DNA from: a virus
Virus record (IMG/VR): IMGVR_UViG_3300014962_000004
Location: 80,292 to 102,511 of that record
Strand: one strand, 5' to 3'
Length of the DNA stretch: 22,220 bases
A program made the translations under genes and the position numbers. Positions 8,399 to 22,220 of this stretch are shown here, piece after piece. The notes under the pieces are model-generated. The model was not told the DNA's origin. It saw nothing but the letters and a program-made list of their open reading frames with translations, and searched no databases. Positions within the stretch are counted from its first letter, which is position 1. Every line of letters starts with the position of its first letter.

Positions 8399-11300
8399 CT
8401 ATTTCATTGGGAAGGGTTCGGAAGGAACGGTGAAGTTGGCGGTGTAGCGACCCACCCGGCTGACCCGCAACCCCTCGATGTAACTGTTGATCCGGTATTC
8501 GGTAGTGCTGTTGTAGTAAGAGTTTCCTAACTGTGGTCGGCCCGCTCCACACAGGTAGGAGTTGGTGTCGGCATAGGTACCGCCAACCTGGGTGCCGTTG
8601 ACGAAGAGCCGGGTCTGGCTGTTGGCACGGCTCACCGCGATGTGATACCACGTCGAAGCGGAGAGAGTGCCGCCGTTAATCTGATTCCCACCGCCGACGT
8701 AGTAGTACAAGGTTGCGTTCTCGCAGTAGATGGTGGGGTATGCGCCCTGCGTGGTGTAGGGCCGCTGATCGTAGAACACTTCCTGGTTCTGGGTGTTGCG
8801 GTACAGCCAGAACTCAATGGTGAAGTCGCCAGCACCGAAGGCAAAATGACTGGTTACGGGAACGGGATTAATAGACGTATTGTCTGTACCGTTAAACGCC
8901 AAAGTGGCGATTTCGTATTTGCTGCGTGTGCTGCTGGTTGCAGTAGCTCCCCTAGTCAGAATGTTCTGTCTGCCGGTCGCGTCGTACACCCCGGCGTTGT
9001 CGAAGTTCAGCAGCAGGCTGGTGCCGCTGATCGCGGTGACCGGTGAGGTTGGGGGCGTGAAGGCGGCGGTGTAGACGGCAGTGTTGGTGACCCTGATGTT
9101 GGCGGCGTGGCCAATGAAATAACCGCCCGCGCCGACTTCCGACCCGACATAGAACGGAGAGGCGGCTGGCGTGGTCAGGTTGTTGTTTGTCGTCGTGGAA
9201 CCGACCGAAACGCCGTTGAGGTACAAGGTGGTGGTGCCGCTGTTTCTAACCAACGCGACGTGCGCCCAGGTGTTGAGAATCATGGGTGCTGATGCGCTGA
9301 TGAGAACGGCATCGTTGTTTCGGTAAGTCAGGTAGCCGGTGTCGCTGACGTTCAGAGCCACATCGTTGGTGGTTCCGGTGCCGAAAGACCACAGCCTCTG
9401 GTAGTAGGTCGTCCGAATAGTGAAATCCTGGAAGTTCCACCATCCCTCGATGGTGAAATTGCCGGTGCCGATGTTGGTCAGATACCCGGTCGGGCACATG
9501 AGGTAGTCGCCCGAACCGTCAAAGTATCCGCTGCCGCCGTAGGTGTAGGTGGCCCTCTTGGTCGTCGGGAACGGGGAGAGGTCGCTGGTGGCCCTGGCAT
9601 CCCCGGTGCGGGTGATGGCGTAGCCGTTGGCGCTCGCGTCGATAAGGGACGATGACTGAGCGGTCAGGAACGTGGTGCCGCTGATCGCGGTCAGCGCCGA
9701 GGTGGGCGGCGTGAAATTAGCCGTGTAGAGAGCCGTCCCCTTGATCACCCGCAGGTTGGAGATGTAGCCGGTCAGGTACTCCTGGTCGTAAGTGACGATC
9801 CGACCGAACTGCAATCCGCCGTTGAACCCGCTGGGAACGTAGGTGGTCGTGCCGACGTTCGTGCCGTTGTGGTACAGCGTGAGGGTGCCGCCGTTTCGCA
9901 CCAGCGCGATGTGGTGCCAGGTGTTGAACGCCAGCGTGTTGGTGCTCTGAATGGTGGGGGTGGCGTACCACCCGGAGCCGTTGCCGATGAAGACGCATGT
10001 TTTTCCGGTGCCGCCTCGGTTGAGGCTGACGGCGATGGTGTTGTGCGGCGCGAAGTTCACGAACGTCTGGTCGCTGGCGGTGCCGGTGAGGGACACCCAG
10101 CCCTCGACGGTAAAGTCGCCGTCCAGCACCAGTCCGGTGCCGCCGCTGGTGGTGCAGTAGTCCCCGACACCGTCAAAGTAGACGCTGCCCGGACTGCTGG
10201 TCGTGGCGACGGTAGTGACCGGCGGGGCGAACGGGAACGGGGAGGATCGGGCGATCTCGGGACTGCCGTTGCGGGTCAGGGCGAAATTGTTGGTGGAGCG
10301 GTCGATGAACCTGTTGTCCTGGCAGGCCAGCAGGGACGTGCCGGTGATCGCCGTCAGGGGCGAGGTCGGCGGGGTGAAGTTGGCGGTGTAGAGGGCGGTG
10401 CCCTTGACCACGCGGAGGTTGGAGATGTGCGACGTGCCGGTCGTGTAACCGTCGGCGTAGCCGCCGATGTGGAACGGAACGCCGGTGGGCAAGTACGAAC
10501 CCGAATAGGTGGATGATCCGACGAGGATGCCGTTCAGGAACAGTCGGAACGTGGACCCCTGCCGGGTGACGGCGACGTGGTGCCACACCCCCAACTGCGC
10601 GTTGCAGGCGTAGTTGCCGGTGAGAGAGGTCATCCCGTAGGTGCCGTCGAACCCTATCGCCGTGCTGCTGAGTCCCACGGCGAACCGCGCCGTCCCACCG
10701 CCGTCCCAGTGGCAGAACAGGGTCGTGCTGTTCCCCCAGGTGAGCGGCATGATCCACCCCTCGATGGTGAAGTCGCCGGTGCCGTGTTCAAACGCGGTGC
10801 TGGACGCGGCGGTGATCCTGTTCGACCCGCCGAGGTTCGCACCGGACCAGTAACCGCTCGGGATGTACGGCGACAGGCTCCCCTGCGTCACGTCGCCGTA
10901 GCGCACCGGCAGGAAGTTGTTGGCCGAGTCGTCGCGGAACACGTTGTTGGTCGCTCCGGGGAGGTCGATGGTCTTTACCTGCAAGGCGTTGGACGTGTAG
11001 AACGTGTCGTTGTAGGGCGGCTCCCAGTCCTTGCTGTAGGGCGTGGGGCTGACGGTGAAATTGCCGGTGTAGCGTGCCGACCTGGTGACCCGGAGTTCAG
11101 CAATCTGCCCGACGTATCCGTAGGCGTTGTCGGCCACGCTGCGCCCCACGGCGGCGGTGGACTCGGACAGGTTGGTGGTGTTCGCCGCCGAGCCGACGCA
11201 CATCCCGTTGATGTAGAGGTAGATCACCCCGTTGGCGCGGACGCACGCGACGTGCGACCAGGTGTTGGCGGCGACGGCGACGTTGGAGGTGACCTGCCAG

Positions 11301-13714
11301 GCGCTGGCCGTGTAGAAGCCGAGGGTGTAGGCGTTGGTGTAATGGCCAAAGTAGATGGCGTTGGCCTGCGCGCCTCGGGTGGAGAAGATGCAACGGTCAC
11401 CGCTGCTGCTGGTGGGGTATATCCACGCTTCGATGGTGAAGTCACCGGTGCCGAACGCGAAATCCGAGGACAGGGTTCCCGAAGTGGCCCGCGCCAGTTG
11501 AGAACCGTTCAGCGACAGCGCAGATCCGGCGAGCATCGCCGGGGTGGGCGTGATGGTCGCGTTGTTGGCGAGATTGTTGCGCCCGGTCGCGTCCCAGGTG
11601 TCGACGACCTGATCGAGCAGCAGGATGGTGTTTTTGGTCGGGGTGTGCGGCGCGGTGCTGGGGGTGAAGTTGGCGGTGTACCGAGCCGCGCGCTCGATCC
11701 GCAGATTGGACACCAGCCCGCCGAAGGTGCTGTTGGTTGTCGCGTCACCGGGCACCGAAAGGAAAGACGTGCCTGATCCCTGGTTGAAGACGGTGGTTGT
11801 TGAGTAGGTGCCTTCTGCAACGCCGTTGACGTAGAGCGTGATCACCCCGTTGCTTCGCACCGCCGCCAGGTGCGTCCACTGGTTGTAAACGATGTCGCTC
11901 TTGCTGGTGATGACCGCGTCGGTGGCGTTGAGGCCGATGGTGTATTTCGTGGGGGTGGAGTTGTGCCCGATGAACAACCCGAAGCAGCCAGTGGCCCAGG
12001 ACGTGTAATTGCACCACATGACGGGATAAGCGCCGACTTTGGCTATGGGGTAGACCCAGCCCTCCACGGTGAAGTCGCCGCCGCCCAGATAGCCAGACGG
12101 CGCGGAGGCCGACAGGTAGTCCCCGTTGACGGCGAACCCGACGTTGGTGAGTTCGGTGGACGGAGCCAAGTACCCCCGCGAGGTGGTCGCCCCATACTGC
12201 CGGATCACTGACGCGAGGCCGCTGGTGTCGCGGTAGGCGGCGTTGGTGAAATTCAGCAGCAGGCTGGTGCCCGACACGGCGCTGACCGGGCCGGTCGGCG
12301 GCGTGAAGTTGGCGGTGTAGACAGCGGTGCCTGCCACCAGTCTGATGTTCGCCATGTAGCCGGTGAGCGACCTGGCCCCGCCGGGGTAGTACGGATAGTA
12401 CCCGGCGTAGAACCCGCCACTGGGCGAATAGATGCTGGCGGCACCGACGTTGGTGGAGCCGATGGAAACACCGTTGGCGTACAACGTGATTGTCACGCCG
12501 TTGCGCACCAGGGCAAAGTGGGTCCAGGCGTTGACCGTGGGCAAGTAGGTGGTGGCGATGGAATACGCCCAACTTCCAGCGCCCGTTGAGAAATAGCAGT
12601 AGACGTAGTTGTTGGTCTCGGTGGTGATGATCCACCCCTGCGCGTCCCCGGTGCCGGTGTTGCACATGATCGGCTGGTAGCCGATGGAATTGGTGGTGAA
12701 GTATTGCCAGCACTCCGCCGTGAAGTTCTGGTTGGTGAAATTGGCGACGGCGTTGGGGGCTGAGAGGTAGTCACCTGAACCGTCGAAGCACGCACTGCCG
12801 CCACTGGCGGCGCTCCACGTCCAGGCGAACGGGGCGAACCGGGACACCGCCACGTCGCCGGTCTTGGTGATGGACAGCGCATTGGCCGAGTTGTCCTTGA
12901 ACCTGTTGTCCTGGCAAGTCAGCAAGATGGTTCCGGTGATTGCCGTCAAGGGCGCGGTCGGCGGCGTGAAACCCGACGTGTAGACAGCGGTTCCAGCGAC
13001 GACGCGGAGGTTGGAAATGTATCCGTTGAAGTAACCGGAGGAGATGGAGTCGCCCGCCACGCCGATCCACGACGTGTTGGCCTGGTTGAGGGTGGCGGTG
13101 CTGGCAAAGGTTCCGTTGGCGACGCCGTTGACGTAGAGCGTAATGGTGCCGCCGCTGCGCACAACCGCGAGGTGCGTCCACTGGTTGTAGATGATGTCGG
13201 CGGTTGACTGGATGGCCGGAAAGGTTCCGTTGCAAGAGACCTGATATTTCGCAGTGTTGGCACTGCCGTGCCCGGCGAACAGCGCCAACGACCCCGCGCC
13301 CCAGGTGCTGTAGTTACCCCAGACTGTCGGGTATGTGCTGACGCGGGCCGTCGGGTACACCCAGACCTCGACGGTGAAATCCCCAGAGCCGAGTTGGCCG
13401 GACGGCGAAGGGGCGGTCAGGTAGTCGCCGCTGCCGTCAAAGTAGGCCGACCAGTACGGCGCGTAGGGGGTGGCGGTGGTCTGGATCGTGTCGCCAGCGC
13501 GGGTGACCGTGACGTTGGCGGGAGACGAGTCGATGAAGGTATCGGCGGCTGTTGAAGTTGTCTTGAGCAGCAGGCGGGTGTTCGACCACTGGGGGTCATA
13601 GCCCGGCCATGCCGAAGCGCGGTTGGCGGCGTTCTGCTCGCGCAGGCTCCACACCCCCTTAGCCGACGTGGTGGCCGGGAGGTTGGATTTTCCGATGATG
13701 TTCCCCTGACCCAT
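8399..13714 (-). CDS. Giant tandem LamG (concanavalin A-like) adhesin, 8 units, 1771 aa
   Basis: The start ATG 13714-13712 overlaps the previous TGA (TGATG), and the gene ends TAG 8401-8399. After an 88-residue N-terminal region containing KGVWSLREQ, the protein has eight LamG/concanavalin A-like jelly-roll units. They begin near bases 13450, 12797, 12136, 11517, 10835, 10187, 9530 and 8905. A typical unit runs: YFDGSGDYL; GDFT[VI]E[GV]W[VI]; W[TH]H[LIV]A[VL]VR with a following LYVNG; G[YF]ISNLR[VI]; then [ARV]YTANFTPPT. Most linkers share a pattern like LLxCQDNRFxDxSxN. LamG folds commonly bind glycans, so this is probably a long tail fibre or virion adhesin for host surface recognition. No catalytic site or intramolecular chaperone was seen. 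The last unit ends at the C-terminus without a linker. Confidence 0.9.
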   Translation of the reverse strand: MGQGNIIGKSNLPATTSAKGVWSLREQNAANRASAWPGYDPQWSNTRLLLKTTSTAADTFIDSSPANVTVTRAGDTIQTTATPYAPYWSAYFDGSGDYLTAPSPSGQLGSGDFTVEVWVYPTARVSTYPTVWGNYSTWGAGSLALFAGHGSANTAKYQVSCNGTFPAIQSTADIIYNQWTHLAVVRSGGTITLYVNGVANGTFASTATLNQANTSWIGVAGDSISSGYFNGYISNLRVVAGTAVYTSGFTPPTAPLTAITGTILLTCQDNRFKDNSANALSITKTGDVAVSRFAPFAWTWSAASGGSACFDGSGDYLSAPNAVANFTNQNFTAECWQYFTTNSIGYQPIMCNTGTGDAQGWIITTETNNYVYCYFSTGAGSWAYSIATTYLPTVNAWTHFALVRNGVTITLYANGVSIGSTNVGAASIYSPSGGFYAGYYPYYPGGARSLTGYMANIRLVAGTAVYTANFTPPTGPVSAVSGTSLLLNFTNAAYRDTSGLASVIRQYGATTSRGYLAPSTELTNVGFAVNGDYLSASAPSGYLGGGDFTVEGWVYPIAKVGAYPVMWCNYTSWATGCFGLFIGHNSTPTKYTIGLNATDAVITSKSDIVYNQWTHLAAVRSNGVITLYVNGVAEGTYSTTTVFNQGSGTSFLSVPGDATTNSTFGGLVSNLRIERAARYTANFTPSTAPHTPTKNTILLLDQVVDTWDATGRNNLANNATITPTPAMLAGSALSLNGSQLARATSGTLSSDFAFGTGDFTIEAWIYPTSSSGDRCIFSTRGAQANAIYFGHYTNAYTLGFYTASAWQVTSNVAVAANTWSHVACVRANGVIYLYINGMCVGSAANTTNLSESTAAVGRSVADNAYGYVGQIAELRVTRSARYTGNFTVSPTPYSKDWEPPYNDTFYTSNALQVKTIDLPGATNNVFRDDSANNFLPVRYGDVTQGSLSPYIPSGYWSGANLGGSNRITAASSTAFEHGTGDFTIEGWIMPLTWGNSTTLFCHWDGGGTARFAVGLSSTAIGFDGTYGMTSLTGNYACNAQLGVWHHVAVTRQGSTFRLFLNGILVGSSTYSGSYLPTGVPFHIGGYADGYTTGTSHISNLRVVKGTALYTANFTPPTSPLTAITGTSLLACQDNRFIDRSTNNFALTRNGSPEIARSSPFPFAPPVTTVATTSSPGSVYFDGVGDYCTTSGGTGLVLDGDFTVEGWVSLTGTASDQTFVNFAPHNTIAVSLNRGGTGKTCVFIGNGSGWYATPTIQSTNTLAFNTWHHIALVRNGGTLTLYHNGTNVGTTTYVPSGFNGGLQFGRIVTYDQEYLTGYISNLRVIKGTALYTANFTPPTSALTAISGTTFLTAQSSSLIDASANGYAITRTGDARATSDLSPFPTTKRATYTYGGSGYFDGSGDYLMCPTGYLTNIGTGNFTIEGWWNFQDFTIRTTYYQRLWSFGTGTTNDVALNVSDTGYLTYRNNDAVLISASAPMILNTWAHVALVRNSGTTTLYLNGVSVGSTTTNNNLTTPAASPFYVGSEVGAGGYFIGHAANIRVTNTAVYTAAFTPPTSPVTAISGTSLLLNFDNAGVYDATGRQNILTRGATATSSTRSKYEIATLAFNGTDNTSINPVPVTSHFAFGAGDFTIEFWLYRNTQNQEVFYDQRPYTTQGAYPTIYCENATLYYYVGGGNQINGGTLSASTWYHIAVSRANSQTRLFVNGTQVGGTYADTNSYLCGAGRPQLGNSYYNSTTEYRINSYIEGLRVSRVGRYTANFTVPSEPFPMK
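8402..13450 (-). repeat. Eight ~650-bp tandem LamG-encoding units
   Basis: Unit starts are about 653, 661, 619, 682, 648, 657 and 625 bases apart. Conserved segments at both protein and DNA level recur in each unit, for example the DNA for TANFTPPT and for SNLRV (seen on the plus strand as 'ggaggttggagatgt'-like blocks). The units are divergent enough to be distinct domains but similar enough to allow unequal recombination. Confidence 0.85.
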
Positions 13715-14448
13715 CAGAGACCAAACCTTGTTTTCTGCGCGTCGTAATTCTGCTGAATTTCAGTGATGGATAAAGCGCGGTTGTAAACCCGGCAAATTGC
13801 TATCCCGCCGTTGTATCGGTAATCCCATCCGCCCCCGTCAAAATAAGCGCCTAAATCTACGCCTCTACCATTGGTGGCGATGGTGCCGGACAAGCTATCA
13901 GAAGCCACCAAAGTGGCATTGCGATAAATCCTCCGCCCGGTTCCGCTGGCGTAAGTTGCCGTTATGTGATTCCAACTGGTGGTGGATACACCGGCTGCAG
14001 ATTCCGTCACGGTGAGGTCGACCAGCGATCCGCCGACCACCATGCGCCAGTAAATGTATCCATTGGCGGTAAAGATTTCATATTGCTGATTGACGATTCC
14101 TTTTTCAAACCAGAAATATGGTTGACCAAGGTAAGTGGGTTTAACCCAGAGTTCCACAGTGGGTGTTTGGGTGTCCAAGACGGTGTTGTTGGGAAATGCC
14201 GCATAGCTCAGGGTGGTAGCCGTCGTGCCAGTTCCGGCAAAGGACATATAGCCGCCGTTGGCGGAATTGTAAGTCACATTACTGAGCGTCCCGGCAGATA
14301 TTGTTCCGGACAGGTCGGTCCAGGTGGTGCCGCTGCCGGGGTAAGAAGCTGGGTTACCCGCATCGACGTGCATGATCAGGCCGTTAGTGACAATGTTGGG
14401 GCCACTCATCTTGGAGTCATACGCCGCGCCCAGGCTCCACACGCCCAT
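13714..14448 (-). CDS. Single-domain LamG-like tail fibre protein (first tandem paralogue)
   Basis: The product is 244 residues, starting at ATG 14448-14446, which overlaps the upstream stop (TGATG). It opens with MGVWSL, the same short motif found near residue 20 of the giant adhesin. It then has TNGLIMHVDAGNPASYPGSG and TTWTDLSG, a LamG core with PTVELWVKP and SWNHITATY, and the ending VYNRALSITEIQQNYDAQK followed by TRFGL. This order matches the next gene upstream, so the two are tandem paralogues. The DNA is more AT-rich than its neighbours (24 GC of 60 at 14101-14160), suggesting a separate origin. A glycan-binding fibre tip is likely. Confidence 0.8.
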   Translation of the reverse strand: MGVWSLGAAYDSKMSGPNIVTNGLIMHVDAGNPASYPGSGTTWTDLSGTISAGTLSNVTYNSANGGYMSFAGTGTTATTLSYAAFPNNTVLDTQTPTVELWVKPTYLGQPYFWFEKGIVNQQYEIFTANGYIYWRMVVGGSLVDLTVTESAAGVSTTSWNHITATYASGTGRRIYRNATLVASDSLSGTIATNGRGVDLGAYFDGGGWDYRYNGGIAICRVYNRALSITEIQQNYDAQKTRFGL

Positions 14449-15182
14449 CAGATGCCGTACCTGGACTTGAAGAAGTTGTAGTTCTGCGCGATCTCGGCGG
14501 CGGTCAAGCCCCGGTTGTAGATCATCACGACGTTCATGGAGGTCTGGAACAGCGCGTCGGCCCAGTTGCTCTTGCCGATGTAATTATTGGCGCGGGTCAC
14601 TGTGGGCGGCACGGCGGTGAGGCTGACCGTGTTCAGGAGGTTGCCGTTACGGTACGCCGTCCCGGTGGTGCCGTTGAGGGCGACGGCGTACTGGGCGGTG
14701 GTGTTGTTGACAATCCCATTGGCTGTGGACACGGTGCCCGTCAGGGTGCCGCCGTTGAACATCTGGAACTCCAAAGTGTCCGAAGTCCCGTTGCGGCCCA
14801 GAAAGATGTTGCTGGCGTATGAGCCGTTCCCGAAATCCATGATCCGTTCCCAGGTGCTGGCAGCGCCGAAGTTCACGATGGCAAAGATCGTGATGCCGTT
14901 CGTCCAGGTGCCGAAACCGGAAGGCAGCGACACGTAGTCGTCGGATCCGTCGAAGACCAGGGTGCCGCCATTGGCGCTGCTGTAGGACACCCCATTGAGA
15001 AGCGTGCCGTGATTGCCGTTGCCGGACAGGTCGGTCCAGGTAGTGCCGGTGCCGGGGTAGGAAAGCCGGTCGCCCGCGTCCAGGTACAGCAGCAGTCCGT
15101 TGGTGGCGAGAGTGATGCCCTCCCCGAACGTGGCTTTGCGCCCGATGTACCCGCCGTTGTCGAAAACCGTCGTTCTCGCCAT
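14448..15182 (-). CDS. Single-domain LamG-like tail fibre protein (second tandem paralogue)
   Basis: The product is 244 residues from ATG 15182-15180, three bases after the previous gene. The ribosome binding site is only modest (GAAGAA), so coupling to the upstream gene is likely. The sequence has TNGLLLYLDAGDRLSYPGTG, TTWTDLSGNGNHGTL, a jelly-roll core (FDGSDDYVSLPSG, ITIFAIVNF) and the ending IYNRGLTAAEIAQNYNFFK followed by SRYGI. The DAG...SYPG...WTDLSGNGNHG signature and the NY-x3-K-[ST]-R-[YF]-G-[IL] ending match the following paralogue. I recall this C-terminal motif from many phage LamG proteins. Probable carbohydrate-binding tail protein. Confidence 0.8.
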   Translation of the reverse strand: MARTTVFDNGGYIGRKATFGEGITLATNGLLLYLDAGDRLSYPGTGTTWTDLSGNGNHGTLLNGVSYSSANGGTLVFDGSDDYVSLPSGFGTWTNGITIFAIVNFGAASTWERIMDFGNGSYASNIFLGRNGTSDTLEFQMFNGGTLTGTVSTANGIVNNTTAQYAVALNGTTGTAYRNGNLLNTVSLTAVPPTVTRANNYIGKSNWADALFQTSMNVVMIYNRGLTAAEIAQNYNFFKSRYGI

Positions 15183-15185
15183 AGG

Positions 15186-15548
15186 CTACGAGATTTCTTC
15201 GTAGCTGCACACCGCTTCCAGCCGGGAGTTGACGCTGGCCGTCACCCGCAGGCTGTCGTTTTCCTCTAGATAAATAGCAGTGTCCTTGGAGATGACCACC
15301 AGGGTCGCGTCAGCCGGGACGGCGATGGTGTAGGCCAGCCGATAGGCGGTGGCCTGGTTCTTGTAGACATCGACGGTGATGTCAGCAGAGTTGGTGCCGT
15401 CGATGTTGGCGATAGCCAACGAGTTGAGCTTGAAGATTTTACCGCTGCTGCTGGCGTTGGTCACCAGCGCTGTGGCGGTCGTCGTCACCGCCGCACCCAC
15501 GGTTTTGCCCTGGATGGTGGTGACGTTGACGATATTCGGGTTGGCCAT
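15186..15548 (-). CDS. Small conserved phage structural protein (120 aa)
   Basis: The gene starts at ATG 15548-15546 with AGGAATC as Shine-Dalgarno and ends TAG 15188-15186. The product begins MANPNIVNVTTIQGKTVGA and contains KIFKLNSLAIANIDGTNSAD, AYTIAVPADATLVVISKD and YLEENDSLRVTASVNSRLEA. It is all beta. I recall proteins of this size and these phrases (ANIDGTNSAD, IAVPADATLVVISKD) in marine cyanophage and pelagic phage genomes, where they lie near tail and neck genes. A small virion or fibre-attachment protein is likely, but the exact role is not known to me. Confidence 0.75.
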   Translation of the reverse strand: MANPNIVNVTTIQGKTVGAAVTTTATALVTNASSSGKIFKLNSLAIANIDGTNSADITVDVYKNQATAYRLAYTIAVPADATLVVISKDTAIYLEENDSLRVTASVNSRLEAVCSYEEIS

Positions 15549-15557
15549 GAGCGATTC

Positions 15558-15776
15558 CTAGCCGAACACCATCGCCATCGCGATGGCCTTCCCGGTGGTG
15601 ACCCCGGCCTGGACCGTCGACCACGTCCCGTCGCCGCGCAGGTAGGTGGAACTGCTGGCGGTTCCGGTCGCGCTGATGTTGGCGACCGGGATGCTGGAGG
15701 TCGCCGCATCGACGTACCCCTTGGTCACCAGGTCGGCGCTGGCCGAGGGGGCCGCTCCTACTTGTTTACGGGCCAT
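15558..15776 (-). CDS. Short tail-fibre fragment-like protein (72 aa)
   Basis: The start is ATG 15776-15774 with TAGGAGAGC upstream, inside the end of the previous gene (11-base overlap). The product has LVTKGYVDAATSS, a tail-fibre segment motif, and SSSTYLRGDGTWSTVQAG. The latter closely matches TSTYLRGDGTWVAIQTG in the 552-residue fibre protein of this window. It ends AMAMVFG. This could be a free-standing fibre module or accessory, or a remnant of a larger fibre protein that still has its own ribosome binding site. Confidence 0.65.
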   Translation of the reverse strand: MARKQVGAAPSASADLVTKGYVDAATSSIPVANISATGTASSSTYLRGDGTWSTVQAGVTTGKAIAMAMVFG

Positions 15777-16164
15777 TCTGCTCTCCTAACGCCGCTACTA
15801 CTTCCCATTGCTGCTGGCCCTCATCCCAGTAATACAGCTGCCCATCCTCGGGCTGCGGCACCGGCGCGACCCACAGGCAGGTGGTTTCGTCCAGAATCCA
15901 CGATGGCCAGGGCTGGGGTGGGATGAACGCATCCCGTTCCGGATCGTAGGTGGATCCCACCCCGGCGTAGTTCTTGCGGAACGCCTTGGACTGGTCGGCG
16001 GCGGGCTGGCCGTCCGGTCCGTAGTAGATTCCACCCCTGGTGTTATAGGAGGTCCGTTTGGCCCCGTAATAAGCTTCCCAATCGCCGGGCGGCTCGGTCT
16101 CGTCCTTGCCGACGATGACCATCGTGACGACGTTGTTTTCGTCCAAGTATGCGTAGTGAGCCAT
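15766..16164 (-). CDS. Conserved phage protein of marine-phage type (132 aa)
   Basis: The start is ATG 16164-16162 with AGGGAATC upstream; the stop TAA is at 15768-15766. The product begins MAHYAYLDENNVVTMVIVGK and contains ADQSKAFRKNYAGVGSTYD, ERDAFIPPQPWPSWILDE, CLWVAPVPQPEDGQ and LYYWDEGQQQWE. I recall this order of motifs in a common small protein of T4-like cyanophages and other aquatic phages, often near fibre genes. Aromatic repeats of the type W-[IV]-L-D and Y-Y-W-D suggest a small carbohydrate-associated or fibre-accessory beta protein. Function is unknown. Confidence 0.75.
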   Translation of the reverse strand: MAHYAYLDENNVVTMVIVGKDETEPPGDWEAYYGAKRTSYNTRGGIYYGPDGQPAADQSKAFRKNYAGVGSTYDPERDAFIPPQPWPSWILDETTCLWVAPVPQPEDGQLYYWDEGQQQWEVVAALGEQNGP

Positions 16165-16170
16165 GATTCC

Positions 16171-17010
16171 CTAAGTAAACGTCACTGTGTCACTAGCGCC
16201 AGCGCCTGTGATGGTGTAGACCTTGAATTCGCCGGACGTGGTGCTGGTTTGAGTCACCCCGGCAGAAAACGTAGCGCTGCGAGTAGCGGGAATGCGCAAA
16301 ATGACGATTCCAGAACCCCCAGCCGAGCTGGCGGGTCCACCAACGTCTTGAGAGCCGCCTCCCCCGCCGCCGGTATTGACTGTGGCTGCACCTGCGGCGT
16401 AGACGTTGTTGCCGCCGACCGCACCGCCGCCCAAGCCGCCGCTACCCACCAGTTTTGCTCCGCCGCTGTCGGGAATGTATCCACCGCCACCGCCTCCGGC
16501 GTAGTAATTGCCGAAGTAGCTGAGACCGTTTCCGCCGTTGCCGCACGCTGTGGTGGTCGGATTACCGCCCACCGCACCAGCGCCGCCGCCACCGGCTGCG
16601 CAATAGCTGTTTCCTGTGGTAGCCCAGCCATTGGTGTCACCACCCTTGTTTCCTTGGCCTGAAACTGCCGTTCCGCCCACATGGGTTTGGTAGTAGGTGT
16701 TAGACGCTCCGCCGCCCGAGCCGCCGTTGCCGCCGTCGGTGCCGTTGTTGTATGCGTAAAAGTGACCACCATATCCGCCGCCAGTTGCCGTGTTAGAGCC
16801 AAAGGCGCTGCTTCCGCCTTGGGCGCGGACTGCTCCGCCGCCACCGACGGTGACGGTGTAGGGAACCCCGGCCTGGAAAGCGAATAGGGCGTTGTATAGC
16901 AGCCCACCGCCACCTCCACCACCATTGCCACCGCCTCCGCCGCCCGCGACGACGAGGTATTCCAGCGTGGATGGGGCGGCGGCAGAGACGTTGCTTGGGA
17001 CGATGATCAT
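16171..17010 (-). CDS. Glycine-rich tail fibre protein (279 aa)
   Basis: I choose ATG 17010-17008 because it overlaps the upstream TGA (ATGA) and yields MIIVPSNVS, matching the start of the AT-rich LamG gene (MIIPSNVS). The longer frame to 17037 lies inside the previous gene. After APSTLEYLVVAGG the protein is dominated by poly-glycine runs (GGGGGGNGGGGGGG, AAGGGGAGAVGG, YYAGGGGGGYIPD) between short aromatic and Asn blocks, then GSGIVILRIP and a short C-terminal beta domain ending TVTFT. This 'LVVAGGGGG...GIVILRY' architecture is a known glycine-rich phage fibre/adhesin type; polyglycine-II sandwiches bind receptors in some phage adhesins. A receptor-binding tip is likely. Confidence 0.85.
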   Translation of the reverse strand: MIIVPSNVSAAAPSTLEYLVVAGGGGGGNGGGGGGGLLYNALFAFQAGVPYTVTVGGGGAVRAQGGSSAFGSNTATGGGYGGHFYAYNNGTDGGNGGSGGGASNTYYQTHVGGTAVSGQGNKGGDTNGWATTGNSYCAAGGGGAGAVGGNPTTTACGNGGNGLSYFGNYYAGGGGGGYIPDSGGAKLVGSGGLGGGAVGGNNVYAAGAATVNTGGGGGGSQDVGGPASSAGGSGIVILRIPATRSATFSAGVTQTSTTSGEFKVYTITGAGASDTVTFT

Positions 17011-18077
17011 GCCGTCAGCCCCCTGATGTCGGCGCACAGCCCCTTGCCCGGAGTGGTGCCGATGGCCGTGATCACGACGGTGAGCACGTCGCCCGCTGCG
17101 AACGACCAGGTTCCGGTCGAGGTGCCGCCCGCGACCTGAGAGGCGGCGGCAATGGTGGTGCTGGTGCCGGACACGGTGGATCCGTTCTTCCGCAACTCGA
17201 CCACCAGGTTGCCGGAGGCATCAGCGGTGGCGCAGCGAAATGTCACGCTGGAAAAGGTGATGTTGCGCTGCAACTTAATCCCGAACGGAAAGTCGCCCGT
17301 GCCGGTGGCGCGGGTCGTGGACGCGCCAAAAGCGACCACCGACGCGTCGGCCACCTGTCCCACGCAAGCCGAAACATTTCCCGACGACGGGGTGCCCAGC
17401 ACCGGGGTCGTCAGCGTCGGACTGGTCAGCGTTTTGTTGGACAGATTTTGGGTGCCGGTCAGCGTCACCAGGGAGGCGGGCAGGGTGTTGGTCGCCGAGC
17501 TGAGGTCTTTGTTGGTGAGCGTTTGAGCAGCGTCTGTCCCGACCAAGGTGAGATTGGTGTCCGGCACCGTCAGCGTTCGGGTAGTGCCGGTCGAGATTCC
17601 CGACAGCGAGAAGTTCAGCAGCTTGGTGGGGTCGGCGGCGTTTTTAATGGAGAAGTTGTTGTCCGGGTACGGCGACGAGTTGACCGAAACCGTCGGCACG
17701 CCGTCGGCGATGATGGTGGCGATGTACTGATTGGTGGTCGGTGCGGTGGCGAACCCCAACGTGACGGTGTTGACCGTTGAGGCCGTCACGTCGCACAGCA
17801 CCTCGGTGTAGGTCGAGGTGTCCTTGACCGACACCACCACGTTGCGGGTGTTGAGGTTGTGGGTGATCGTGATGCTGGTCGACGACCCGTCGCCAATGGT
17901 TTGGACGAAACTGCCGACACCGAAATAGCTGTAGTTCAGCGTCGACCAAGGATTGATCCCGTCGCCCACCTTGATGCGCTTGGTGTCAATTTCATATCCC
18001 ATCTCGCCCTGAGACAGGATGGGGTTGGCCGCTGTCCACGAGGCGGCGGTTCCGCGTTTGAGTTGGATGAGGGTCAT
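17007..18077 (-). CDS. Mtd_N-type tail fibre protein with duplicated C-terminal domain (356 aa)
   Basis: The start is ATG 18077-18075 with AAGGAAAA upstream. Residues 1-52 (IQLKRGTAASWTAANPILSQ, GEMGYEIDTKRIKVGDG) match the Major tropism determinant N-terminal type of domain, as in the two upstream paralogues. A beta-rich central region follows, with TGTTRTLTVPDTNLTLVGTD and TNKDLSSATNTLPAS, repetitive stalk segments seen in phage fibres. The last ~115 residues (VVAFGASTTRATGTGDFPFG to ADIRGLTA) recur in the fibre protein at the right edge of the window at about three-quarters identity by eye. The stop overlaps the start of the glycine-rich gene. Likely a virion fibre whose N-terminal domain anchors or folds it and whose C-terminal head binds a receptor or a partner. 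Confidence 0.85.
   Translation of the reverse strand: MTLIQLKRGTAASWTAANPILSQGEMGYEIDTKRIKVGDGINPWSTLNYSYFGVGSFVQTIGDGSSTSITITHNLNTRNVVVSVKDTSTYTEVLCDVTASTVNTVTLGFATAPTTNQYIATIIADGVPTVSVNSSPYPDNNFSIKNAADPTKLLNFSLSGISTGTTRTLTVPDTNLTLVGTDAAQTLTNKDLSSATNTLPASLVTLTGTQNLSNKTLTSPTLTTPVLGTPSSGNVSACVGQVADASVVAFGASTTRATGTGDFPFGIKLQRNITFSSVTFRCATADASGNLVVELRKNGSTVSGTSTTIAAASQVAGGTSTGTWSFAAGDVLTVVITAIGTTPGKGLCADIRGLTA
17010..17352 (-). repeat. Copy 1 of duplicated fibre head domain
   Basis: This segment encodes the C-terminal ~115 residues shared with 21798-22142. Both copies keep VAFGAST-x-RATGTGDFPFGI, RCATADASGN, VVELRKNGSTVSG, SWSFAAGD-type and GTTPGKG blocks. Both are followed directly by an overlapping gene that begins M-I-I-(V)-P-S-N-V-S. 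Confidence 0.85.
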
Positions 18078-18092
18078 GGGATTTTCCTTGGC

Positions 18093-18713
18093 TTAGGTGA
18101 AGGTGATGTAGGGGCCAGCGATCCAGCCTGAACCGCTGGCTCCGGTGTAGAGGCTCAGACGGAATGGGCCGCTCCCGTAGCTCGCCTTAAGCCCAGTAGT
18201 GCTGATGACCGCACTGGTATTGGTTCTGCTAAGCACACTTGCATAAGCGAAAGATTCAATCAGGACGTACAGCGGTACCGTGCCGTAAGTAGCGTCGCTT
18301 GCCATAAAGTTGGTGCCGTATATCGTGCGATTTGTGCTGTCCGGTGCAGAAGCCGGAGAAACGCTGGTGAAGGTGGGTGCGGGTCTGGTGTCTGGCGGCG
18401 GCGGGGGCGGCTCCACCGCTGCGGTGATGACCTGGCTCGACGACGACCCGAACGGAGTGGTGACCGTGACCGACCCCGAAGATGCGTTTGTAGTATACAT
18501 CGAAAAAGTCAACGACTTGCCGTCGGCGGCGACGGTGATGGCGCTCAGCCCGTTGGCGAGGGTGGAAGTCAAGCTCGTAGAGCCTGAAACAAAATTGGCA
18601 CCGGTGATCGTGAAGCCGACCCATCTTGAGGTGTAGTAGTAGGTCGGCGAGATGCTGGAAACCGTCGGCGGCAAACCACCGGCGGTCACTAGTTGGGCGT
18701 GGGCGGCGAACAT
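18093..18713 (-). CDS. IPT/TIG-like two-domain virion protein (206 aa)
   Basis: I place the start at ATG 18713-18711, overlapping the upstream TGA (TGATG). A longer frame to 18830 lies inside the upstream gene and has a non-protein-like N-terminus. After MFAAHAQLVTAGG come two Ig-like IPT/TIG-type units. One begins PPTVSSISPTYYY with GFTITGANFVSGS. The other begins PAPTFTSVSPASA with RTIYGTNFMASD. They are joined by a proline-rich linker (VEPPPPPPDTRPAP). Ig-like domains on phage virions commonly help weak binding to carbohydrates or decorate fibres. No enzymatic motif is seen. The short N-terminal stretch is not a convincing signal peptide. Confidence 0.8.
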   Translation of the reverse strand: MFAAHAQLVTAGGLPPTVSSISPTYYYTSRWVGFTITGANFVSGSTSLTSTLANGLSAITVAADGKSLTFSMYTTNASSGSVTVTTPFGSSSSQVITAAVEPPPPPPDTRPAPTFTSVSPASAPDSTNRTIYGTNFMASDATYGTVPLYVLIESFAYASVLSRTNTSAVISTTGLKASYGSGPFRLSLYTGASGSGWIAGPYITFT

Positions 18714-19438
18714 CAGTAGGTGTAACCCTGCGATGCGCTGCCGTACCAGTTCGTGCCGTCCGAGAAGAAACTGAGGATGTCCATCTTCCCGGCGGCGGTC
18801 GTGATCGTCGGTGTGCCCAGGACGCTCCACTTGACGTTGGTGAACGTGGCGCTGCCGCCGCCGGTCGACGCGGGCTGCTTGAGGAACAGCACGAACGACT
18901 GCCCGGCGGCAGGGGTCGGCATGGTGAACGTGCAGGCGGTGCTGGCGGTAAGGGTGGCGGTGATGACGGTGCCGGACGACAGGCTCAGGGTGGCCGACGA
19001 CGACACGGTTCCGAGCGCGTTGACAGACTCGGTGTAGCCAGTGACGGTGGGCGCGGTGAGTGTTTTGTTGGACAGCGCCTGGGTGCCGGTCAGCGTCACC
19101 AGGCTGGACGGGAACGTGTTGGTCGCCGAGGTGAGGTCTTTGTTGGTCAACTGGGCGACGGCGGAGTTTTTGGTCGCGTCGGAGGTGTTGTCGACATTCC
19201 CGAGGTCGATGGCGGTGCGAGCGGCCAGCGCGGTCGACCCGGCGGCAATGTAGGCCGGTTTGTTCGGCAGCGTCGACCAGTCCAGGGGGATGTAAGGCAG
19301 CCCCGACCAGGCGGTGGATCCATCACCGATCTTGAGTTTATAGGTGTCCACCTCGTAGCCGAATTCACCCTGACCGAGGACGGGGTTGGAGTACGTCCAT
19401 TGCGTGGCGGTGCCCCGCCTGATTTGAATCTTGGTCAC
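18713..19438 (-). CDS. Mtd_N-type tail fibre protein (241 aa)
   Basis: The start is GTG 19438-19436, overlapping the upstream stop (GTGA). Residues 1-50 (IQIRRGTATQWTYSNPVLGQ, GEFGYEVDTYKLKIGDG) are the Mtd_N-like domain. The next part has IDLGNVDNTSDATKNSAVAQ and LTNKDLTSATNTFPSSLVTL, stalk repeats shared with the 552- and 356-residue proteins. The C-terminal region is a beta domain with SFVLFLKQPAS and ends KMDILSFFSDGTNWYGSAS and QGYTY, a tail ending I recall from other phage fibres. It overlaps the IPT/TIG gene by one base. Probable short fibre subunit. Confidence 0.85.
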   Translation of the reverse strand: MTKIQIRRGTATQWTYSNPVLGQGEFGYEVDTYKLKIGDGSTAWSGLPYIPLDWSTLPNKPAYIAAGSTALAARTAIDLGNVDNTSDATKNSAVAQLTNKDLTSATNTFPSSLVTLTGTQALSNKTLTAPTVTGYTESVNALGTVSSSATLSLSSGTVITATLTASTACTFTMPTPAAGQSFVLFLKQPASTGGGSATFTNVKWSVLGTPTITTAAGKMDILSFFSDGTNWYGSASQGYTY

Positions 19439-21093
19439 AGTGTGCCCCCGTCAATGTAGCCCGCGCTGGTGCTCGACGGGCTGCCGCCGTCGAGACTAGC
19501 AATGAGCAGCGAAATCGGGTTGCCGACATTCGACCCTTGGGCGGTGAATTGAAAGCTGTCTCCGGTCAGCGTGACCCCGTCGACCACCAGGCCGGGCGGG
19601 ATCTGCTCAATCGGAACCTTGGTGGCGCTGTCCAGCGAGGCGTACCCGTTGGGCTGGCCTTTGTTGGCGATCACCTCGATGGTCGATGACGCATCCGGCA
19701 CGGTGAGGGTGCGGGTGGTTCCGGTGGTCAGGCCGGACAGCTGGAACTTGACCTGCTTGGTGGCATCCCCATCGTCCTGCAGCGTGAAGGCATTGTCAGC
19801 GAAAGTGCTGCCGGTCTGGATGGCCACCCACGTTCCATCGCCGCGCAGGTACGTGGACGTACCGGGCGTGCCGGTGGTCGACAATGCCGAAATCGGGATG
19901 TTCGACAGGGTGTTAGAGGATCCGGAGATCGTCTTGCCCGACAAGGTCTGGGTGTCGCTGGTGCCGACCACATCACCGGTCGGGGCGGTCTTGGCAGCGA
20001 ACGCGGCCAGGTCGGCATCGTAGCCCTGCACCGACACCCCGATGGCGTTGGAGATGCGCGCGTCGGCGCGGGCGTTGGTGAAGTAGAGGTTGGTCGAACC
20101 CTCGGTCACCGCGTCGGTGGATCCAGGGCTGGGGCTGATCTCGACGTAGGCCGACCCCGACCACCGGTACACCTTGTTGCTGTCCAGGGCAACGTAGATC
20201 TTGGCGGTCTCGCCGGTGCCGGGGAACACCGCCAGGTCGGCGTATTCCAATACGTCATCGACGTAGGAGGGCAGCTGAGTGGACGGCACCAGCCCGGAAG
20301 AGTTGAGGCTGGCGTAGCCATCCGGCTGACCCTTATTGGCAGTCGACTCCTTGGCCGAAAGGTCGGTCGACAGGTTAGTGACCGCCGACTGGGGGATGTT
20401 AGACAGGGTGTTGTCGGATCCCGAAATGGTCTTGTTAGTCAGCGTGGCCGAGGCACTATTCTTGGTCGAATCTGAAGTGTTGTCCACGTTGGATAGACCC
20501 ACCGCGCTCTTATCAAGCGCCTGCCAGCTCTTGTCACCCCGCCAATACTGTCCAGTGGTGCCGGACGTAATGGACGGTTCCTTGCCGTCCAGGGCCGTCT
20601 GCGTGGCGCTGCTGACCGGCTTGTCGGCATCGGCGGTGTTGTCCACATTCGACAAGCCCACATCAGACTTGGTCAGCGCATGCCAGGTTTTGTCATAGCG
20701 GAACCACTGACCGGCGGTGCCGGTGTTGATGACCTCTTCCGCGTCAATGGCGTTACGCGCGTCGGCTTTGGTCGCTCCGGCGGCGACGTATGTCGGTTTA
20801 CCCTCCAGGGTCGCCCAGTCAGCCTGCGTGATGGGAAGCTGGGTGCCGGGCACCTTGCCTGAAGAATCCAGCGAGGCGTAGCCGTCAGCCTGGCCCTTTT
20901 CGGAAGTGGATTGCTTGCCCGCCAAATCGGTAGCGCTAGGAAGGTAGGCCAAGCTGTTCCAGTGGGTGTTACCGTCGCCCATCTTGAGCTTGCCGGTGTC
21001 GGTCTCAAGGCCAAACTCGCCGGGAGCAAGGATCGGGTTAGACGAGGCCCAGGTAGTCGCCTGTCCCCGTTTCACCTGAATCACTGCTGGCAT
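19435..21093 (-). CDS. Mtd_N-type long tail fibre protein with stalk repeats (552 aa)
   Basis: The start is ATG 21093-21091 behind AGGAGA, which overlaps the upstream TAG. Residues 1-51 form the Mtd_N-like domain (IQVKRGQATTWASSNPILAP, GEFGLETDTGKLKMGDG). The rest is a repetitive stalk: three copies of KGQxxGYASL(D/N)S-(S/A)-x-x-VP, two of VGLSNVDNTxD, two of SG(S/T)TGQ(Y/W) type, two of T(I)SGS(D/S)NTLSNIP, plus NLYFTNARADARISNAIG and STYLRGDGTW. These are classic trimeric phage fibre shaft segments. The C-terminal ~60 residues (VVDGVTLTGDSFQFTAQG) form a small head. It is probably a main fibre shaft, with its N-terminus bound to the baseplate or acting as a folding cap. Confidence 0.85.
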   Translation of the reverse strand: MPAVIQVKRGQATTWASSNPILAPGEFGLETDTGKLKMGDGNTHWNSLAYLPSATDLAGKQSTSEKGQADGYASLDSSGKVPGTQLPITQADWATLEGKPTYVAAGATKADARNAIDAEEVINTGTAGQWFRYDKTWHALTKSDVGLSNVDNTADADKPVSSATQTALDGKEPSITSGTTGQYWRGDKSWQALDKSAVGLSNVDNTSDSTKNSASATLTNKTISGSDNTLSNIPQSAVTNLSTDLSAKESTANKGQPDGYASLNSSGLVPSTQLPSYVDDVLEYADLAVFPGTGETAKIYVALDSNKVYRWSGSAYVEISPSPGSTDAVTEGSTNLYFTNARADARISNAIGVSVQGYDADLAAFAAKTAPTGDVVGTSDTQTLSGKTISGSSNTLSNIPISALSTTGTPGTSTYLRGDGTWVAIQTGSTFADNAFTLQDDGDATKQVKFQLSGLTTGTTRTLTVPDASSTIEVIANKGQPNGYASLDSATKVPIEQIPPGLVVDGVTLTGDSFQFTAQGSNVGNPISLLIASLDGGSPSSTSAGYIDGGTL

Positions 21094-21102
21094 TGCTGTC
21101 TC

Positions 21103-21798
21103 CTAAAGCGAGTATTTGGTTCTGAGATAATTCAGCATTGTTTCATAGTTGGAACTAGACAAGGCCGCTAAAATTATTAATTCACACATGTCCCCGCCAG
21201 TAAAATAAAGCGAGTTTGAAGATCGAGCACCTATATACAGTGTGTCTGTTGCGTTGCTTGATGTAGCATAGCTTGAAATAGAAGCAGAACCGTTTGCCCA
21301 CGGCGTGGTAGATATACTAGTTCCGTTGTATTTTAGAGTAAAACTATTTCCATCAAAGTTCATTGAACCTACGGCAAAAGTGTTATTAGGAAACCAATCT
21401 ATATCTCCCACGGGCTGAGCGCGATAGGGTTGACCGACTGTTGATCGGTAAACGGAATACGGAAAATAAGCATCCGTGTAATAATAAAAACCGTTTAAAG
21501 CGTTTCCGTTAGTTGATTGTTCGATAATTAAAGGATAGCCCGCTTGATAAATTACTGAAAATACAGCCAGTGATGAAGGAGCAACAAAAGAAGGTATTGT
21601 AAAATGTCCAGTGTCTGGAAAATACGCTGCAGGTTTTCCACTGTAAGTAGTTGAAGTAACCGTTCCATTTTTGGTAGGATTAGTGCCTTTTTTAGCAACC
21701 CATGTGGTTCCATTGTAATCTGCTGCATCAAGCCACAAAATAAAATTGTTTGAAATTGCAGCTAGTGGATCTGATGAAACATTACTGGGAATTATCAC
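21103..21798 (-). CDS. AT-rich single-domain LamG-like fibre protein (231 aa)
   Basis: The start is GTG 21798-21796, overlapping the upstream TGA (GTGA). The product begins MIIPSNVSSDPLAAISNN, then FILWLDAADYNGTTWVAKKG, a lectin-like core with GDMCELIILAALSSSNYETM, and ends LNYLRTKYSL. It is the same LamG class as the 244-residue genes, with a related ending (NY...K..[FY]). Its DNA is much more AT-rich than its surroundings: I counted 26 GC of 60 at 21181-21240 and 22 of 60 at 21541-21600, against 39 of 60 at 20041-20100. This points to recent acquisition. The N-terminal MII(V)PSNVS is shared with the glycine-rich gene, so the two look like alternative cargo at equivalent positions. A receptor-binding tip is inferred. 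Confidence 0.8.
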   Translation of the reverse strand: MIIPSNVSSDPLAAISNNFILWLDAADYNGTTWVAKKGTNPTKNGTVTSTTYSGKPAAYFPDTGHFTIPSFVAPSSLAVFSVIYQAGYPLIIEQSTNGNALNGFYYYTDAYFPYSVYRSTVGQPYRAQPVGDIDWFPNNTFAVGSMNFDGNSFTLKYNGTSISTTPWANGSASISSYATSSNATDTLYIGARSSNSLYFTGGDMCELIILAALSSSNYETMLNYLRTKYSL

Positions 21799-22220
21799 GC
21801 AGTCACCGCCGTGATGTCAGCAATAATGCCCTTGCCGGGCGTGGTTCCGACGGCGGTGATGTAAACCGTCAAAATGTCACCGGCAGCGAACGACCACGAA
21901 CCGGTTGCGGTGCCGCCCGGCGTGACTTGATTAGCCGCGCTGATCGTCGCCGACGAACCGCTCACGGTGGAGCCATTCTTGCGAAGTTCTACCACAGTGT
22001 TCCCGCTCGCGTCGGCGGTGGCGCAACGATAGGTCACTGACGTGACAGTGACCGCACGCGGGAGTCGGATGCCAAAGGGGAAGTCTCCGGTTCCGGTTGC
22101 GCGAGCTGTAGACGCGCCAAAAGCCACGATGGACATGTCGTCTACTTGGCCGGGGCCACCAACGACGACGATGTTATTTCCTTCGACGGCCAACACGCCT
22201 GCTGACGCGCGACTCAGAGT
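21795..22220 (-). CDS. Tail fibre protein, 5' end missing (runs off right edge)
   Basis: The frame is open to base 22220. The visible part begins TLSRASAGVLAVEGNNIVVV, a fibre phrase in which a GTG (22196) could be read as a start but is more likely internal. The final ~115 residues are a near-duplicate of the C-terminal domain of the 356-residue fibre protein: VAFGASTARATGTGDFPFGI, RCATADASGNTVVELRKNG, SWSFAAGDILTVYITAVG, and TTPGKG. Its TGA overlaps the GTG start of the AT-rich LamG gene. By analogy the missing N-terminus may carry an Mtd_N or stalk region. It is the earliest gene in the visible fibre transcript. Confidence 0.8.
   Translation of the reverse strand, partial: TLSRASAGVLAVEGNNIVVVGGPGQVDDMSIVAFGASTARATGTGDFPFGIRLPRAVTVTSVTYRCATADASGNTVVELRKNGSTVSGSSATISAANQVTPGGTATGSWSFAAGDILTVYITAVGTTPGKGIIADITAVTA
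21798..22142 (-). repeat. Copy 2 of duplicated fibre head domain
   Basis: Partner of 17010-17352. One residue is inserted relative to copy 1 (near the QV-[TA]-P/G-GG position). The DNA is still recognisably similar, for example the GGCAACGGTG/GCATCAGCGGTGGCGCA-type blocks around 17210-17235 and 22010-22030. Confidence 0.85.

Follow-up and report, generated by a model that had tools for sequence, protein, structure and literature searches.

The stretch of DNA analysed here (the window, 22,220 nucleotides) covers bases 80292-102511 of the 150.1-kb IMG/VR virus record IMGVR_UViG_3300014962_000004 (G000) and carries an array of fibre genes on its minus strand. Two of these fibres end in the same head domain, and the stop codon of each overlaps the start of a further gene, here called a cargo gene. 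The two cargo genes open with nearly the same short leader and then carry different cargo. From sequence comparison, structural models and analogy, we consider it likely that in phages of mycolic-acid bacteria such a pair makes up one adhesin of the plug-and-socket type, encoded by two genes, in which the leader would dock on the fibre head and the cargo would bind a receptor. The parts of the two units are as follows.

17007-18077, minus strand: fibre 1 (P0001), 356 amino acids, with Mtd_N at residues 4-40, a decoration-like segment at residues 65-123, a stalk and a C1q-like head
17010-17357, minus strand: C1q-like head domain of fibre 1
16984-17010, minus strand: leader MIIVPSNVS of cargo gene 1; its start overlaps the fibre stop by 4 bp (ATGA)
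16171-17010, minus strand: cargo gene 1 (P0002), 279 amino acids, glycine-rich, PF21722 / phrog_2295
21795-22220, minus strand: C-terminal part of fibre 2, with a C1q-like head at about 21798-22142; the gene continues past the window
21772-21798, minus strand: leader (M)IIPSNVSS of cargo gene 2; its start overlaps the fibre stop by 4 bp (GTGA)
21103-21798, minus strand: cargo gene 2, 231 amino acids, an AT-rich orphan with a GC change-point at 21794

The window equals exactly one scaffold contig and is bounded on both sides by scaffold gaps of ten Ns (G000 80282-80291 and G000 102512-102521). Fibre 2 is cut by the window end, and its gene runs across the right gap to an Mtd_N start in L003:466-1119. 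Since this gap lies inside the fibre 2 gene and is flanked on either side by the 9-base repeat ACTCAGAGT, the join of the two contigs is a scaffolding inference. Relatives of the record are found in the Ceeclamvirinae, Mycobacterium phages with contractile tails (Myrna, Phabba and ScoobyDoobyDoo): the major capsid protein is 89% identical to those of Phabba and Myrna, and the sheath, tape measure and baseplate genes stand in the order found in Ceeclamvirinae, which places the record among Ceeclamvirinae-like phages.

Residues 240-356 of fibre 1 and the fibre 2 fragment are identical at 90 of 118 positions (76%) with one gap (E=3e-59), which agrees with the preliminary description of a common domain of about 115 residues and makes the two heads more than distant relatives. 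The head DNA is 67% identical over 357 bp (E=2.5e-26) and is the only second copy at the DNA level in the record. At junction 1, the fibre end ..CTG ACG GCA TGA is overlapped by ATG ATC ATC GTC CCA AGC AAC GTC TCT, and at junction 2, ..GTG ACT GCG TGA is overlapped by GTG ATA ATT CCC AGT AAT GTT TCA, so that the overlaps and the MII(V)PSNVS openings are as first described. The seven residues common to the two leaders (II..PSNVS) are identical, and all seven codons differ at synonymous positions; the match is therefore one at the protein level, and reflects neither chance nor a recent DNA copy.

The same description called the heads duplicated, but a simple duplication is not established, because the head of fibre 1 is closer to that of a related locus, L033 (81-82%), than to the head of its window mate (77%). 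In the tree, both window heads fall into one supported group, which also contains two relatives from metagenomes and one prophage; a constraint that makes the two window heads one clade is not rejected (approximately unbiased test, p-AU 0.17).

Behind these heads, cargo gene 1 matches the glycine-rich family PF21722 in Pfam (1.5e-15), as its composition had suggested. For cargo gene 2, which had been read as an AT-rich LamG gene, the first half of the label stands: its GC content is 0.392 (0.289 at third codon positions, GC3), compared with 0.59-0.64 (about 62%) in its neighbours, and the best GC change-point coincides with the junction, at base 21794 (2-lnL interval 21782-21835). The LamG half has no profile support, as neither Pfam LamG at E up to 1 nor any PHROG at E up to 10 is matched, and hhalign gives a negligible match (probability 1.4%) to the genuine LamG proteins at 13714-15182. 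No credible relative of this gene was found in viral contigs, in phages (tblastn), in PHROGs (E up to 10), in Pfam or in the PDB, and a single-sequence AlphaFold2 (AF2) model reaches a predicted local distance difference test score (pLDDT) of 34, too low for the model to be of use.

The arrangement is not confined to this phage. We gathered 81 non-redundant heads from annotated phages, IMG/VR contigs and prophages, using sub-alignments. Almost all relatives of the head domain come from phages and prophages of mycolic-acid bacteria, and the phage matches belong almost entirely to Mycobacterium, Gordonia, Rhodococcus and Nocardia. Within the GTDB family to which Nocardia cyriacigeorgica belongs, 27 of 401 genomes contain the domain; of 395 genomes sampled across the whole class, 1 has it, and this is the centre genome. 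The head is C-terminal in all 81 instances (at most 10 residues beyond it), and no fusion to cargo was seen. The next gene starts at -1 in 18/81 and at +2 in 46/81, which gives overlaps of 4 bp or 1 bp; in 72/81, its start is no more than 4 nt away from the stop. Among the annotated phages, the end of the head gene meets or overlaps another gene in 15 of 15 cases. For comparison, a 1- or 4-bp overlap was counted by hand in 13 of 43 neighbouring gene pairs of the Myrna stretch. We found no description of this arrangement in the open-licence literature.

The cargo, on the other hand, is diverse. Pfam assigns Gly_rich_2 (PF21722) to P0002 and Myrna gp134, a Lactonase-type beta-propeller to the cargo of L034, DUF7257 to those of L054 and L135, and PAF-acetylhydrolase to that of L109; inspection by eye and clustering add C1q-like proteins of about 140 residues and Pro/Glu-rich tails. 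The preliminary description had proposed a search for the junction in other phages; with the two window genes included, the PSNV[ST] opening occurs four times, each time with different cargo: glycine-rich, the AT-rich orphan, the beta-propeller of L034 and a cut-off glycine-containing protein (L033). The opening is therefore not tied to a single cargo type. Besides its leader, the L109 cargo has a C1q-like stretch and a PAF-acetylhydrolase/PETase-like domain, so that an enzyme is carried at the junction. In L090, L126, L127 and L129, the whole cargo is 77-99 residues long, and a Pro/Glu-rich tail is all that follows the leader; the leader is retained and a folded cargo is seemingly absent.

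This diversity bears on the possibility that the product of the second gene, like T4 gp38 or Tfa, helps the fibre head to fold or assemble and is absent from the finished virion. Fibre chaperones are typically encoded just after the fibre gene, and T4 gp38 is one (PMC12892980). However, the chaperone of one conserved head should itself be conserved, whereas here the head is constant and the cargo varies (propeller, glycine-rich, C1q-like, esterase), in some cases down to a leader and a Pro/Glu-rich tail that is about 70 residues long (L126, L129). We consider a chaperone role quite improbable.

The leader itself is recognisable more by its pattern than by its letters. The hydrophobic fraction at residues 3-6 is 0.68/0.83/0.63/0.53, and falls to 0.12 at residues 7-9; at least three of the four residues 3-6 are hydrophobic in 76% of the cargo genes, but in 9% of 97 other coupled (overlapping) genes of the same loci. 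Several leader types (PSNVS, MPHIFVRGGS, MPCIVV, MPLIV, MFVVR and MIISFPP) track the head. The comparison of leaders with heads and cargo covers 75 pairs. When the heads are at least 75% identical and the cargo is unrelated, leader similarity is 0.64, against 0.24 (sd 0.03) in shuffled data (P=0.0002); when the cargo is related and the heads are less than 50% identical, it is 0.16, which is not above shuffled. On the head tree, the same rows require 6 changes for leader type and 19 for cargo class. Over all pairs, the partial rank correlation is 0.19 between leader and head (P=0.002) and 0.04 between leader and cargo (P=0.15). Judged from these comparisons, the leader goes with the head and not with the cargo. 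Clustering of the stalks by BLAST gave no information, since nearly all of them are connected through repeats.

Such an association could also come from physical linkage only: the slow-changing start of the cargo gene would stay with the fibre gene while recombination cuts downstream, and the pair would be a mere operon without docking. Leader and head are indeed adjacent in the DNA, and any downstream breakpoint creates an association between them. The compositional boundary of the AT-rich cargo lies right at the stop/start junction, so the leader of that cargo may even have arrived with the cargo. Three observations speak against linkage as the whole explanation. The hydrophobic pattern persists in clades with unrelated leader letters; the two window leaders share their residues with every one of the seven codons changed; and related cargo behind different heads (L063/L069, L054/L073) has the leader type of its own head. 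On balance, linkage without docking seems unlikely.

When close heads are followed by unrelated cargo, DNA identity extends through the head and ~30 bp beyond the cargo start, and then drops to background. In L040/L043, for example, identity is 83-97% upstream and 87% in the leader, and then 43/37%; the pairs L043/L107, L119/L123 and GMA2/GMA3 have the same breakpoint pattern. In the converse case, L079/L080, cargo that is 90-97% identical stands behind heads that are about 70% identical at the DNA level. The breakpoint check that had been suggested for the junction thus finds identity collapsing just inside the cargo gene in several pairs. Such abrupt breaks, at nearly the same position in several independent pairs, are what one would expect if the junction were a DNA-level recombination or inversion site, at which a recombinase or a retroelement drives the exchange of cassettes. 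The fraction of identical codons, however, is no higher in the leaders than in the heads (0.47 and 0.49), so that the junction is conserved for its protein and not as a DNA site; the window pair, with a common leader protein and different codons, points the same way. Thus, of the proposed module-swapping junction, the attachment of different cargo holds in the window and beyond it, and the swap site in the DNA does not. A search with PF00078 found no reverse transcriptase in the record either, and we regard a DNA-level site as highly improbable.

The retroelement form of this idea deserves mention because an Mtd_N domain (PF18454), as in Mtd of Bordetella phage BPP-1, stands at the start of both fibre 1 and fibre 2 and occurs in five copies in the record. 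Unlike in the Bordetella system, there is no reverse transcriptase here, so nothing points to a diversity-generating retroelement in spite of the Mtd_N domains.

The head is predicted to be a C1q/TNF-like jelly roll: the AF2 model, built from 35 rows, is all beta with a pLDDT of 96. The nearest solved structures in Foldseek are C1QL1, C1QL3, cerebellin (Cbln), BclA and ExsF, with a probability of about 1.0 and a template modelling (TM) score of about 0.4-0.56, and BFVD contains the same domain in actinophage tail proteins. The head domain also matches the C-terminal ~100-125 positions of phrog_32311 and phrog_2952 (fibre 2 head, 1.5e-42 and 9.2e-32; fibre 1 head, 2.5e-41 and 7.7e-33), families annotated as minor tail protein, which come without a fold, a partner gene or a leader rule. 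A PDB sequence search with a 17-row head alignment gave spurious matches only, mostly to maltose-binding-protein constructs, and no relative of the head among the solved structures, the published mycobacteriophage baseplates included.

Two known systems resemble the proposed unit. In the long tail fibres of S16 and T2, the N-terminal part of the gp38 adhesin docks through hydrophobic contacts on the end of trimeric gp37 (PDB 6F45; PMC6851490, PMC12892980); distally, gp38 is hypervariable and in some cases rich in glycine (a polyglycine sandwich), N-termini are fibre-specific, and chimeric gp38 with a matching N-terminus restores function in T2 (PMC6851490, PMC12892980). As there, the second chain is translated separately from a gene directly after the fibre gene, and P0002 and Myrna gp134 have a glycine-rich distal domain, although most other cargos lack one. 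The attachment differs. gp37 ends in an interdigitated beta-helix, whereas the fibres here end in a C1q-like head without sequence homology to the gp37 tip; gp38 is held by an N-terminal helical bundle with tryptophans, whereas the leaders here have 6-9 mostly hydrophobic residues (MIIVPSNVS, MPHIFVRGGS); and the cargo here covers unrelated folds plus an enzyme. The second system is the exosporium of Bacillus, where a crystal of ExsF holds three copies of the short N-terminal leader of another protein in the inter-subunit clefts of a C1q/TNF-like trimer (PDB 9H3D; PMC11952670). These BclA / F-Anchor leaders make hydrophobic and hydrogen-bond contacts and are common to proteins with different C-termini. 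ExsF differs from the head here in being a bacterial spore coat protein with a leader of ~20 residues, without a reported stop/start overlap, a fibre stalk or demonstrated sequence homology; as an analogy and not a homology, it shows that such a head can hold such a plug.

The adhesins of haloarchaeal Hafunavirus tails provide a further comparison: in the part of that source considered here, a glycine-rich tip gene lies in a hypervariable fibre region and is linked to host range by plating tests (PMC8651126). That part describes four groups of one adhesin type and not an exchange for unrelated folds, and contains neither a C1q-like head nor a leader rule (PMC8651126). A fibre with a separately encoded, exchangeable tip is thus already known; here, the socket differs and the plug is much shorter than in the known examples.

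In the plug-and-socket unit that we propose, the first gene would encode a virion fibre whose last ~115 residues form the C1q/TNF-like, presumably trimeric head, or socket. The second gene, whose start codon overlaps the stop of the first, would contribute in its first ~6-9 residues a hydrophobic plug matched to the head subtype, and in its remainder an exchangeable cargo (an adhesin, a lectin-like domain or an esterase) that would be displayed on the virion and meet the cell surface, so that the cargo may act as a host-range tip. Phages would exchange cargo through recombination at the start of the second gene or slightly inside it, and selection would retain only hybrids whose leader fits the resident head; it is this selection that would make the junction look conserved. 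A separate chain would be sensible if the trimer carries one or few tips, as three gp37 and one gp38 chains do in S16 (PMC6851490). We also incline, with less confidence, to a general form of the scheme, in which one C1q-like trimeric socket, on tail or capsid fibres, would take any cargo (lectin-like, propeller or esterase) that has a subtype-matched leader of ~8 residues.

Several points weigh against the docking interpretation. A leader beside the head with recombination downstream could yield the association by linkage alone, and that association is modest over all pairs. The leader is short and variable between clades. The trimeric state of the head rests on fold similarity with modest scores (best E 6e-4). 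L006/L036 and the first copy in L017 have a head without a leader gene, and gp19 of Nocardia phage NBR1 opens with MTFDYFPG, a poor fit to the leader pattern. The heads of L006/L036 and the first L017 copy may be terminal heads that carry no cargo.

Little is settled about which proteins of the mycobacteriophage virion touch the cell and what they target. A rule that names socket, plug and cargo from sequence would turn genes now called 'hypothetical' or 'minor tail protein' into a candidate list of receptor-binding or wall-acting proteins, covering Myrna, Alice, Odin and Kimona, all of which grow on M. smegmatis mc2 155. The rule accounts for the common start of unrelated genes and predicts which parts are compatible. 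If the general form of the scheme is true, surface-active parts are swapped among phages and the fibre need not be remade.

With respect to location, both units of this phage lie in the region bounded by the major capsid gene and the gp115 homologue, a region that in Myrna and Phabba codes for proteins of head decoration and for fibre proteins, and residues 65-123 of fibre 1 resemble a solved capsid decoration protein (PDB 9nx3, E=5.4e-5). Because of their place in the capsid-decoration locus, the window fibres may be head (capsid) fibres. Myrna, by comparison, has one head-plus-cargo pair (gp133-gp134), beside the baseplate. In this phage, the gp133 homologue retains the N-terminal part and has lost the head, gp134 has no match, and the site is occupied by a long helical insert and a 716-residue cutinase/PE-PPE protein.

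In L005:3-3017 and L031:19088-19999, the gp133 homologue is an enlarged protein of about 1300 residues; it has a long hydrophobic/helical repeat insert, and its C-terminus is a different one. The 716-residue protein (L031:16401-18551, G000 about 56700-58850), beside the baseplate, combines PE-PPE/lipase-like and cutinase-like stretches (phrog_102 endolysin) and, from its sequence, is likely to be a mycolate-envelope esterase. In L016 (ChisanaKitsune), L017 (Peregrin) and L136 (NBR1), the pairs of head and next gene adjoin capsid protease, portal or major tail genes and not the baseplate. Phabba (L030) has, at 13249-18010 in its head-decoration locus, a second chain of overlapping genes, in which an 842-residue fibre, whose C-terminal beta domain may be similar, is followed by two glycine-rich genes; this may be a divergent form of the head-cargo scheme.

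The fibre array of the window contains three further genes between the two units.

19435-21093, minus strand: 552-amino-acid Mtd_N fibre of the same array, without a C1q-like head of this family
18713-19438, minus strand: 241-amino-acid Mtd_N fibre; its stop codon and the following gene share 1 bp
18093-18713, minus strand: 206-amino-acid IPT/TIG-domain gene, opening with MFAAHAQLV and coupled to the 241-amino-acid Mtd_N fibre

The last two make a third pair of a fibre and a coupled gene, and the end domain of this fibre is a different one. In addition, the same array includes a 1771-residue protein with eight Laminin_G_3 domains (8399-13714) and two single-LamG genes (13714-14448 and 14448-15182).

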